Assembly: GCA_016869555.1 (NCBI GenBank) | Contig: VGDY01000002.1 | Coordinates: 1 to 64,000 of the forward strand | Direction: 5' to 3' | DNA from: Alphaproteobacteria bacterium | Lineage (GTDB): Bacteria > Pseudomonadota > Alphaproteobacteria > Rhizobiales > Beijerinckiaceae | DNA: 64,000 nucleotides | The notes under the pieces: generated by a model | Told to the model about the DNA's origin: nothing | Databases searched by the model: none | The model's input: the letters and a program-made list of their open reading frames with translations, nothing else | Translations under genes and position numbers: made by a program | Shown: in pieces, positions 30,678-60,463 of the stretch | Layout: every line of letters starts with the position of its first letter | How positions within the stretch are numbered: the first letter of the stretch is position 1

Positions 30678-30794
30678 TCGCGGCGTCGCCCGATCCGGCG
30701 CGTTTCAGCAAGCCTCGGCGCCCGCAAAGGCTTCGAGAGACTTGCGCACAGGCGGCCCTTTCCCAAAATCCCGCAAACCCCTATATTCGATTTG

Positions 30795-31125
30795 CCGTCG
30801 CTTGCGGCGGCTATGGCGATAAACGGACACCGTAATAAACCATTCGGACCCGGGGGCGGTACCCGGCGCCTCCACCCAAGCCCGTCGCCTGCGGCGGGTT
30901 TCGGCGGGGGCGAAATAGGATCGACGAGGGTGTAAAGGGTGATTTTTCGCTCGGCATGATACCGCCGTTATCGGGTCAAACCTTATAGTTGCCAACGACA
31001 ACTATGCTCCGGTGGCCGTCGCTGCGTAATGCAGCGCCCAAACCGGGATTAAAGTCCTAAGGGGTTGCACCTTTAGGCGGGGTCCGGAGGCGCCTGGCAA
31101 CAGAAGCCTCCACTTAATTCTTTTC
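30795..31125 (+). ncRNA. ssrA: Circularly permuted (two-piece) tmRNA
   Basis: Acceptor 3' side (CGGTACCCGGCGCCTCCACC) lies upstream of the 5' side (GGGGGCGAAATAGGATCGACGAGG); CGCCTCC pairs with GGGGGCG including G3-U; tag ORF 30991-31029 encodes ANDNYAPVAVAA-stop. Confidence 0.94.
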
Positions 31126-41268: not shown

Positions 41269-41571
41269 ATGGTCAATTTCGAGCATGTCGCCGGGTTCGA
41301 ATGGGATCAGGACAATGCGCGCAAAAGCATCGAAAAGCACGGCGTCAGCCAAGCGGAGGCCGAGCAGATTTTCGCCAATGAGCCGCTGATCATGACGGAC
41401 GATTTGGCGCACAATGCGAGGGAGCCGCGCTATCACGCGCTCGGTCGAACGGATGCAACGCGGTTGCTGCATGTCACATTCACGCTCCGCTCTAACGGGA
41501 CGCGCATTCGAATCATCTCCGCGCGCGACATGAGCCGCAAGGAACGGTTACGCTATGAGCAAGACGATTAA
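41269..41571 (+). CDS. brnT: BrnT-family ribonuclease toxin
   Basis: FEWDQDNARKSIEKHGVSQAEAEQIF ... GRTDATRLLHVTFTLRSNGTRIRIISARDMSRKERLRYE. Confidence 0.9.
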   Translation: MVNFEHVAGFEWDQDNARKSIEKHGVSQAEAEQIFANEPLIMTDDLAHNAREPRYHALGRTDATRLLHVTFTLRSNGTRIRIISARDMSRKERLRYEQDD

Positions 41572-41816: not shown

Positions 41817-43091
41817 TTACACCCGCCTCGGCACGAGGATCGCACGAAAATCATTGACATTGGTGCGCGTCGGCCTGGTCACGATGAGGTCGCCGAGCTT
41901 CTCGAAGGCGGTGTAGGCGTCATTGTTGGCGAAATGCGCCTTCAGATCGACGCCCGCTTTTTTTGCGCGCGCGAATGAATCCGCCGTCATGATCGCGCCG
42001 GCGTTGTCTTCGCTGCCGTCGATGCCGTCGGTGTCGCAGGCGATCGCCGAAATGCCGCCGAAGCCTTCGAGCGCGAGCGTCAGACCCAGCAAGAACTCGG
42101 CGTCGCGTCCGCCGCGCCCCTTGCCGCGCACGGTGACGGTCGTCTCGCCGCCGGAGATGATCGCGACAGGCGGCTCAAAGGGCTGGCCATGAAGCGCGAT
42201 CTGCTTGGCGACGCCAGCGTGAACCAGCGCCACGTCGCGCGATTCGCCTTCAAGATCGCCGAGAATGCAGGGGGTGAACCCCGCCGCTTTGGCGACCGCC
42301 GCGGCCGCGTCGAGCGAACCTTGCGGCGTGGCGATGAGGATGTTCTGCACTTTTTCAAAAATGGCGTCGCCGGGCTTGGGCGTTTCGCATGCGCTCTCTT
42401 GCAGATGCGCCAGCACCGCCGCCGGTGCGTCGATCTTATATTTGGCGATGACGGCGAGAGCGTCTTCGCGCGTCGTCGGATCGGGAACCGTCGGGCCGGA
42501 GGCGATCACCGAGAGATCGTCGTTCGGCACGTCGGAGATCATCAGCGCCACGACGCGCGCCGGCGCGGCGGCGCGGGCGAGACGCCCGCCCTTGATGGCG
42601 GAGAGATGCTTGCGCACGCAATTCATCTCGGAGATGTTCGCGCCGCTCTTTAAGAGCGCCTTGTTCACCGCCTGCTTTTCCTCAAGCGTGATGCCCTCGG
42701 CCGGCAGCGCCATCAAGGCGGAGCCCCCGCCGGAAATCAGCGCGAGAACGAGATCGTCTTGCGAAAGCCCCTGCACTTTCTGCAAAATGCGCTTCGCGGC
42801 CTCGCGCCCGGCGGCGTCCGGCACCGGATGCGAGGCTTCGATCACTTCGATCTGTTTCGTCGGCGCGCCATGTTCGTAGCGCGTGACGACGAGCCCTTCG
42901 AGCGGGCCGCGCCAATGGGCTTCGACCGCCGCCGCCATTGAAGCCGCCGCCTTGCCGGCGCCGACGACGATGGTGCGGCCTTTCGGCGGCGCGATCTTCG
43001 CCAGATGCGGCGGCAGGCAAACCGCAGGCGATGCGGCGCCGACGGCGGCGTCGAACATCGCGCGGAGGAGTTGGCGGTGGTCTTGGGACAT
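41817..43091 (-). CDS. gck: Glycerate 2-kinase (MOFRL/DUF4147 family)
   Basis: VVGAGKAAASMAAAVEAHW, SGGGSALMALPAEGITLEEKQAVNKALLKSGANISEMNCVRKHLSAIKGGRLA, DTDGIDGSEDNAGA. Confidence 0.92.
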   Translation of the reverse strand: MSQDHRQLLRAMFDAAVGAASPAVCLPPHLAKIAPPKGRTIVVGAGKAAASMAAAVEAHWRGPLEGLVVTRYEHGAPTKQIEVIEASHPVPDAAGREAAKRILQKVQGLSQDDLVLALISGGGSALMALPAEGITLEEKQAVNKALLKSGANISEMNCVRKHLSAIKGGRLARAAAPARVVALMISDVPNDDLSVIASGPTVPDPTTREDALAVIAKYKIDAPAAVLAHLQESACETPKPGDAIFEKVQNILIATPQGSLDAAAAVAKAAGFTPCILGDLEGESRDVALVHAGVAKQIALHGQPFEPPVAIISGGETTVTVRGKGRGGRDAEFLLGLTLALEGFGGISAIACDTDGIDGSEDNAGAIMTADSFARAKKAGVDLKAHFANNDAYTAFEKLGDLIVTRPTRTNVNDFRAILVPRRV

Positions 43092-43125
43092 GGTGGGTTC
43101 CAGTTGCCAAAAGCGGTGGGGCATC

Positions 43126-43184
43126 TCCTTCTCCCGTAAGCGGGAGAAGGTGGCCCTCGCGTTAGCGAGGGTCGGATGAGGGCG
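43126..43184 (-). repeat. Palindromic repeat family C, copy 1 (inverted relative to copy 2)
   Basis: CTTCTCCCGTAAGCGGGAGAAGGTGGCCCTCGCGTTAGCGAGGGTCGGATGAGGGCG. Confidence 0.9.
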
Positions 43185-43556
43185 TTACGGCTCGCATCCG
43201 CCTTTTTCTAAGGCCTCGCGAATGCGATCAAGCGGAATATTTCCGCCGCCGATGACAGTCTCATTGTCGAACCGGAGAACCCGATACCCTTGTCCGCGAA
43301 GCCAAGCGTCGCGTACAGCGTCGTGTTGCTTCTGATCGTCTTTGTCGTGCGGCAGACCGTCGAGTTCGACGACGAGACGATGTTCGATGCAAAGAAAATC
43401 GACGACATATTTGCCGATCGGAACCTGTCTGCGAAATTTGAGTCCGTCGAGGCCTGAGCCGCGCAAAGACCGCCACAGGATTTCCTCGGCGACAGTCATA
43501 TTGCGCCGAAGTTTACGCGCGAAGTCGGTCTGAGATTTCGAAACCAGCGCAGGCAT
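43185..43556 (-). CDS. DUF559 (Vsr-like/PD-(D/E)XK) endonuclease-domain protein
   Basis: ARKLRRNMTVAEEILWRSLRGSGLDGLKFRRQVPIGKYVVDFLCIEHRLVVELDGLPHDKDDQKQHDAVRDAWLRGQGYRVLRF. Confidence 0.92.
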   Translation of the reverse strand: MPALVSKSQTDFARKLRRNMTVAEEILWRSLRGSGLDGLKFRRQVPIGKYVVDFLCIEHRLVVELDGLPHDKDDQKQHDAVRDAWLRGQGYRVLRFDNETVIGGGNIPLDRIREALEKGGCEP

Positions 43557-43572
43557 CGGTCAATCCAATGGC

Positions 43573-43627
43573 CCTCATCCGACCCGGCTTCGCCGGGCCA
43601 CCTTCTCCCGCAAGCGGGAGAAGGGTA
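43573..43627 (+). repeat. Palindromic repeat family C, copy 2
   Basis: CCCTCATCCGACCCGGCTTCGCCGGGCCACCTTCTCCCGCAAGCGGGAGAAGGG. Confidence 0.9.
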
Positions 43628-43646
43628 AGCCCGGCGCCGTCGCCCT

Positions 43647-44618
43647 TTACGCCGCCATCGCGTTGGCCTTCTCGATCAGCGCTTCGGCCATGCGGATCGA
43701 GGCGATGTCGATCAGACGGCCGTCGAGCGAGACCGCGCCCTTGCCTTCCTTGGCGGCCTGCGCCATCGCGTCGAGAATGCGGCGCGCCTTGGTCACCTCC
43801 GCCTCGGACGGCGTGAACACCTGATTGGCGAGTTCGATCTGCGAGGGATGGATCGCCCACTTGCCTTCATAGCCGAGCACCGCGGCGCGCTTGGCGGCGG
43901 CGATATAGCCGTCCGGATCGCCGAAGTCGCCGAACGGACCGTCGATCGGACGCAGGCCATAGGCGCGGCAGGCGACCATCATCCGAGTCTGCGCCGCATG
44001 CCACTGATCGGCCCAGTAGTATTCGCGATTGCCGCTGGCGTCCTTGTCGGTGAGCACGCCGTAATCCGGATTGACGCCGCCGATGACGGTGGTGCGGGCG
44101 CGGGTCGACGCCGCATAGTCGGCGACGCCGAAGGACATCGCCTCAAGGCGCTTGGACGATTGCGCGATCGCTTCGACATTGGCCATGCCGAGCGCGGTCT
44201 CGATCAGGATTTCGATGCCGATCTTCTTGGTGCGCTTCTTATATTGCTCGATCTGCGTGATCATCATGTCGATCGCATAGACGTCGGCCGGAACGCCGAC
44301 CTTCGGGATCAGCACGATGTCGAGGCGCGGACAGTTCTCGAGAACGTCGACGACGTCGCGATAGCAATATTGCGTGTCGAGACCGTTGATGCGCAACGTC
44401 ATCACCTTCTTGCCCCAGTCGATGTCGTTGAGGCCCTGGATGATGTTCTTGCGCGCCTGTTCCTTGTCGTCGGGCGCGACGGCGTCCTCGAGATCAAGGA
44501 AAATCTGATCGGCCTTGGACTGCGCGGCCTTTTCGAACATGCCCGGCGCGGAGCCCGGCACGGCGAGTTCCGAGCGATGGAGACGCGGCGTCGCCTGCTC
44601 GATTAAAGTGAAGCTCAT
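43647..44618 (-). CDS. mcl: Malyl-CoA lyase
   Basis: RLHRSELAVPGSAPGMFEKAAQSKADQIFLDLEDAVAPDDKEQARKNIIQGLN; GKWAIHPSQIELANQVFTPSEAEV. Confidence 0.95.
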   Translation of the reverse strand: MSFTLIEQATPRLHRSELAVPGSAPGMFEKAAQSKADQIFLDLEDAVAPDDKEQARKNIIQGLNDIDWGKKVMTLRINGLDTQYCYRDVVDVLENCPRLDIVLIPKVGVPADVYAIDMMITQIEQYKKRTKKIGIEILIETALGMANVEAIAQSSKRLEAMSFGVADYAASTRARTTVIGGVNPDYGVLTDKDASGNREYYWADQWHAAQTRMMVACRAYGLRPIDGPFGDFGDPDGYIAAAKRAAVLGYEGKWAIHPSQIELANQVFTPSEAEVTKARRILDAMAQAAKEGKGAVSLDGRLIDIASIRMAEALIEKANAMAA

Positions 44619-60211: not shown

Positions 60212-60463
60212 GTCGACTCCTCCGTTTCTGACGCTTACTCCTATGACCCGCCACAACCCCTATTGACAAGCCAGGCGCCAGTTCGGCTATGCTTTTTGCT
60301 GGCGATGGAGTTCGCCTTTAACCGCCTTTCGGCTGATGACTCCTGTTCTGCGTTACGTCGCCGGGAGTCCTTCGATGCCCCAACCGTCATCACCTTTCGG
60401 GAAACCGCCGACCGCCGCGCGTCGGGATTCGCAGGCGCGATCGCAAGCCGCCGGGCGGACGCC

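Follow-up and report, generated by a model that had tools for sequence, protein, structure and literature searches.

A gene for a small DUF559 (PF04480) nuclease is located in the serine-cycle gene cluster of the 64 kb window (the whole stretch of DNA that was analysed), between two copies of a palindromic repeat, and the question that this locus raises is whether nuclease and repeat belong together. The earlier note had placed the block between mcl and gck and had described the gene as bounded almost exactly by inverted tag-hairpin-hairpin copies; both statements hold (Table 1), the stop-codon side of the gene being 2 bp from one repeat and the start codon 15 bp from the other. The 5' flanking repeat is inverted with respect to the 3' flanking repeat, such that the elements follow the order hairpin-tag-DUF559-tag-hairpin. 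Exact matches to the tag CCCTCATCCGACCC occur at just two sites in the window, and the same is true of CCACCTTCTCCC. Folding gives two hairpins for either repeat copy (-18.8 and -21.2 kcal/mol), with z values of -4.3 and -6.5 relative to shuffled sequence, and the Rfam scan of the window matched no family at the repeats. Membership of the encoded protein in DUF559 is clear, as the PF04480 profile scored 130 bits against a curated cut-off of 20.6. Elsewhere in the window, Rfam identified a tmRNA and a fluoride riboswitch, and a BrnT-family ribonuclease toxin gene was found just past gck, as it was near gck in several congeners.

Table 1 Positions of the DUF559 unit, its repeats and other features in the 64 kb window.
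Feature	Position	Strand	Details
DUF559 (PF04480) PD-(D/E)XK nuclease gene	43185..43556	-	123 aa; Pfam E=4.3e-38
3' flanking repeat, downstream of the gene	43123..43184	-	tag CCCTCATCCGACCC, small hairpin and CCTTCTCCC hairpin
5' flanking repeat, upstream of the gene	43571..43628	+	tag, small hairpin, large hairpin CCTTCTCCCGCAAGCGGGAGAAGG
Inverted arms I1	43119-43156 / 43595-43632		on both sides of the gene
Inverted arms I2	43169-43183 / 43571-43585		on both sides of the gene
Tag CCCTCATCCGACCC (14-mer)	43169..43182	-	exact match, facing the gene
Tag CCCTCATCCGACCC (14-mer)	43572..43585	+	exact match, facing the gene
CCACCTTCTCCC	43142-43153	-	exact match
CCACCTTCTCCC	43598-43609	+	exact match
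Large palindrome CCTTCTCCCGTAAGCGGGAGAAGG	43127..43150	.	outer unit end
Large palindrome CCTTCTCCCGCAAGCGGGAGAAGG	43601..43624	.	outer unit end
gck (glycerate kinase, MOFRL)	41817..43124	-	neighbour outside unit; junction compared in 30 congeners
mcl (malyl-CoA lyase, HpcH/HpaI)	43647..44618	-	neighbour outside unit
BrnT-family toxin gene (PF04365)	41269-41571		E 1.6e-24
tmRNA, alphaproteobacterial (permuted)	30755-31114		Rfam
Fluoride riboswitch	60292-60352		Rfam

Reading of the flanks revealed palindromic repeats on both sides of all seven DUF559 genes of the source genome. These repeats fall into four or more sequence families that share one layout: a CCCTCTCCC..GGGAGAGGG-type hairpin, in some cases a second hairpin, and then a G-rich tag, e.g. 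GGATGAGGG, GGGTGAGGGG or AGGGGTGGGG. The repeat described in the earlier note is present at the locus, but it is one of many related families. As the inner hairpin varies in length, an exact search for the full element with a fixed gap was unsuccessful, and counts for the pattern GCCCCCTCCCTGTCCCTCCCC were set aside because the reversed pattern meant as its control is nearly identical to it.

Pairing of the repeats into REPIN-like inverted dimers is frequent. Four congeners yielded 35 such tag-hairpin/hairpin-tag pairs, with a gap of 56-90 bp, mostly 71-74 bp and with a mode of 72 bp, and the window repeats have in common with REPINs this dispersal as inverted dimers with a short defined gap. 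The order found at the window gene, with similar spacing, recurs in 16 of the 17 loci of its clade, and in some genomes the DUF559 gene is located between two whole repeat dimers. Alignments of unit copies from unrelated sites stop at the outer repeat ends: homology of one unit (L002) ends -99/+112 bp from the domain edges, and two units of the source genome (L001 and L003) have 570 of 623 aligned bases identical while their outer flanks are unrelated. The unit ends are defined, no known transposase is present inside the unit, and no target-site duplication was identified at the units.

The association was measured with a flank score, the best local alignment, in both orientations, of the upstream 250 bp against the 250 bp on the other side of the domain. 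The window gene scored 27, and a score of at least 20 was reached by 76 of 84 DUF559 genes versus 0.4% of 1680 intervals taken at random from these loci; in the extended set, the same repeat was present on both flanks of 94 of 105 genes. A shared flank repeat was found for only 12 of 785 other ORFs in the same loci, and BrnT genes, taken as a control from the same group of genomes, gave 0/28 with a maximum score of 12. Chance palindromes were rejected on these three comparisons, and DUF559 genes are far closer to the repeats than chance allows, as the earlier note had proposed to check.

The same score was applied more widely. Across the phylum, 90 DUF559 loci were sampled from 398 genomes; 54 of them scored at least 20 (4/274 ORFs) and 58 at least 16 (7/274 ORFs). 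These shares may not hold for the whole family, since the sampled loci belong to the stronger DUF559 matches, and roughly one in three of the sampled genes lacked a shared flank repeat. In a plasmid collection covering further phyla and Neisseria, 12 of 17 genes were flanked, including those of Pseudanabaena, Picosynechococcus, Deinococcus species and gonococcal NGO0050 (structure 3hrl). DUF559 genes with such flanks were also found in Niastella and at a Magasanikbacteria locus, and no flank repeats were found at those of E. coli, Photobacterium, Methylobacterium aquaticum and Synechocystis B12. Phage records gave three weak matches only.

Several of these loci have features of their own. On Deinococcus plasmids (L293, L294, L304, L306), palindrome-flanked DUF559 genes occur within a paa operon and, in the hpa catabolic operon, at three distinct junctions. 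NGO0050 (L301) has on either side a copy of a >100-bp repeat that contains CCCTCTCCCTGTGGGA and AGAGAGGGC, the two copies being in direct orientation. Palindromes of the CCCC(C)TAAATCCCC type flank DUF559 in cyanobacterial plasmids (L292, L297, L309), and in Sphingomonas parapaucimobilis (L307) a DUF559 gene with flank repeats is found between GatB/YqeY and dnaG.

The type of repeat follows the sequence of the nuclease. Among pairs of DUF559 genes at non-homologous sites within the genus, the repeat family was shared in 92-100% of pairs with a protein identity of at least 0.7, in about half of those at 0.6-0.7, and in 0-2% of those below 0.5; inside single genomes, it was shared in 3/3 pairs at 0.7 or above versus 1/89 below 0.5. 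Simple inheritance of one shared site was rejected as the source of the association because it holds at non-homologous sites. The within-genus Mantel correlation was 0.32 (p=0.001, no permutation above 0.13) and the cross-genus correlation was weaker (0.24, permutation maximum 0.21, p 0.001), the shared ancestry of the proteins remaining in both statistics. In the tree, the window repeat recurs beside the nearest relatives of the window DUF559, in Caulobacterales (L038, L048, L050) and at L260. At one intergenic site (L004, L055, L056, L058), different congeners carry different DUF559 clades together with different repeats.

Presence/absence polymorphism was examined at the mcl-gck junction of 30 congeners, including the source genome; ten loci were left unscored because the stretch did not reach mcl. 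Among the scored junctions, only that of the source genome contains DUF559. Two (G003, G013) are 38-39 bp long and have no repeat, three (G053, G018, G046) have a single hairpin, two (G043, G044) have a gene-free pair of window-family repeats, and eight (G001, G051, G052, G047, G048, G021, G011, G002) have pairs or clusters of other families, which are likewise DUF559-associated. At three other DUF559 sites, relatives without the gene have one dimer, one hairpin or nothing of the kind. The search for empty junctions suggested by the earlier note has thus found the block to be polymorphic, at mcl-gck and at other sites, and the proposal, which could have fallen on an invariant block or on a distance to the repeats no shorter than chance, withstood both. 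Broken DUF559 copies that keep their flanks also occur, one with a stop (L028) and three as fragments (L085, L087, L117). Intergenic sites that house DUF559 units in other congeners (L278, L279, L281, L282) contain a CGTCATGCCCGCGC..-type (CGTCATG..) palindrome resembling CGTC-tagged REPs.

Copy number points in the same direction with less force. Window-family copies that do not flank a gene had a median of 4 in the 13 genomes with the cognate clade versus 0 in the 19 without it (MWU p 7e-4, Fisher p 0.004, counts of exact patterns only). When genomes were paired on the gck tree, about three of four independent contrasts were in favour and none against, which is not significant because four contrasts are too few. 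The family CTAGGGGTGGGGG showed hardly any excess beyond gene-flanking copies where its enzyme is present, and the window family is present without an intact cognate gene in G041 (13 copies, gene fragment only), G017 (4) and G018 (3). Counts in the source genome, probably that of a methylotrophic alphaproteobacterium, are approximate, as its assembly (G000) is fragmented into 295 contigs and has an estimated contamination of 8.6%.

As to the protein, an AF2 model of the window DUF559 (pLDDT 85) was closest in Foldseek to NGO0050 (3hrl, E 7e-7), the catalytic domain of the homing endonuclease I-Bth0305I (3r3p, 1e-4), which is the nearest fold outside DUF559, and Vsr (1cw0, 6e-3). Across 38 diverse sequences, R17, E24, W28, R43, D53, F54, E64, D66, G67, H70, D79, G90 and R95 do not vary, and conservation in this set and in 105 DUF559 sequences marks R17, E24, W28, R43, D53, E64-x-D66-G67, H70 and D79 as invariant. 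The fold matches and the invariant D53, E64, D66 and H70, putative catalytic residues, place the protein in the Vsr-like PD-(D/E)XK fold. Against PADLOC models the protein matched weakly and over 51 residues (E 5e-4), short of membership in a defence system.

The pairing of DUF559 with repeats across bacteria suggests that the nuclease is the missing partner which handles or spreads them. A nuclease-repeat partnership, the central idea of the earlier note, is strongly supported at the level of sequence by the chance tests, the polymorphism and the covariation with clade, and its simplest form is a RAYT/REPIN-like partnership in which a Vsr/homing-type PD-(D/E)XK nuclease would replace the HUH transposase; this is the account towards which we lean. 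Each DUF559 clade would then be the cognate enzyme of one dispersed palindromic repeat family, and (hairpin-tag)-DUF559-(tag-hairpin) would constitute a small nuclease-repeat unit. The nuclease may recognise the tag and hairpin of its own family and nick or cut at its own repeat in extruded, single-stranded or replicating DNA, and resolution of the break would copy or move repeat units to further intergenic sites, in most cases as REPIN-like dimers lacking the gene and sometimes together with it. DNA cleavage and its target, recognition of hairpin and tag, and dispersal and movement driven by the nuclease are what we infer here.

The main rival, unlikely in our judgement though to be taken seriously, is a homing-type selfish gene. 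A freestanding DUF559 homing endonuclease would cut at pre-existing repeats or terminator hairpins, and homologous recombination would copy the flanked gene into the break, with the repeats serving as target and homology arms and not as cargo. The likeness to I-Bth0305I fits this reading, as do the broken genes with flanks, which are expected of the life cycle of a selfish gene, and the empty sites that often have one hairpin or dimer where the occupied site reads repeat-DUF559-repeat (L006, L003 and gck sites). Other empty sites are, however, without such a repeat (G003 and G013 at gck, the L007 site), and homing alone leaves unexplained the gene-free dimers with a fixed 72-bp gap that are spread through genomes. 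It is less probable again that another transposase or a RAYT moves the repeats and that DUF559 is its cargo or has accumulated in repeat-rich intergenic regions. Other repeat families do occupy the same junctions, so that these spots are permissive, and RAYTs move known REPs in other bacteria (PMC3116915, PMC8266576); but BrnT, another small mobile gene, is not so flanked, repeat type tracks DUF559 sequence, and the single RAYT-type (Y1_Tnp) gene found in the source genome (L037, on another contig) is broken by two in-frame stops.

Two further readings have little to recommend them. DUF559 could be a Vsr-like mismatch-repair enzyme for methylated sites, its association with repeats being secondary because GC-rich repeats are frequent methylation sites. 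In Caulobacter, a mismatch-repair role was proposed for the DUF559 protein VsrA (CCNA_02930), on which DNA damage in vivo depends and which triggers the SOS response in the absence of the cytosine methylase ScmA (PMC12907096), and Vsr is among the fold matches. Mismatch repair predicts neither repeats on both sides nor clade-specific families, and the action of VsrA on TG mismatches is a prediction in that work; we consider the reading very improbable, and damage by VsrA at repeats, if it occurred, would reconcile the two roles. Least credible of all is that the palindromes are ordinary transcription terminators insulating a small gene. The large hairpin looks like an intrinsic terminator, and three mcl-gck junctions (G053, G018, G046) have a lone hairpin, yet terminators need neither match across the two sides nor have a shared tag, whereas here one clade-specific family with its tag is found inverted on both sides, far more often than at other ORFs, and also as gene-free dimers. 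The terminator-only reading was rejected on the both-sided repeats, the tags and the dimers.

REP-like palindromes rank with the commonest repeats in bacterial genomes, and many of their families lack a known enzyme. DUF559 is a large protein family of solved structure (3hrl) and unknown function; nuclease family and orphan repeats appear to be partners. It is quite possible, although we would stop short of calling it probable, that hairpin-tag repeats dispersed by a cognate DUF559 instead of HUH transposases make up a new, bacteria-wide class of miniature mobile DNA, and with the same reserve this class may take in many abundant orphan CCCTCTCCC-type palindromes of Proteobacteria and the CCCCTAAATCCCC-type ones near cyanobacterial genes. 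No description of the pairing was found in the open-access papers searched. If the partnership is real, a route of repeat mobilisation not based on HUH enzymes would be added, a 123-residue protein and short oligonucleotides would suffice to test directly how many orphan repeats are dispersed, and DUF559 genes called Vsr-like, e.g. Caulobacter VsrA, would be read differently.

Among known systems, RIME/BIME-type mosaic elements of rhizobia, two-palindrome intergenic repeats of alphaproteobacteria, are similar to the DUF559 repeats by description only, and to our knowledge no partner nuclease of theirs has been reported. Vsr and the EDxHD homing endonuclease I-Bth0305I are likened to the window protein through its predicted model; no association with repeats is described for them in the literature covered, unlike the window DUF559, which is freestanding between repeats. 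Caulobacter VsrA is likewise a DUF559 protein, but one with a proposed repair role (PMC12907096). TIRtrons, with long inverted repeats at a RAYT, and CGTC-tagged REPs, reported without a dedicated transposase, are palindromic repeat families too, although TIRtrons still encode the tyrosine transposase and the CGTC tag differs from those of the DUF559 repeats (PMC3733652). REP/REPIN-RAYT systems (REPtrons; PMC3116915, PMC8266576) share with the DUF559 units short tagged palindromes, inverted dimers, clade-specific repeats, and a nuclease gene in one or few copies that has inverted repeats of the cognate family on its flanks. The earlier note had seen a REPtron-like layout with a PD-(D/E)XK nuclease, and the own-family inverted flanking repeats and the dimers bear this out. 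The window unit is not a member of REP-RAYT, because its enzyme is DUF559 and not an HUH Y1 tyrosine transposase and because its tag, CCCTCATCCGACCC and relatives, is not of the GTAG type, the repeats being CCCTCTCCC-type hairpins with a G/C-rich tag. The comparison concerns the way of working only: DUF559 would do for its repeats what RAYT does for REP/REPIN, by means of an unrelated enzyme fold.
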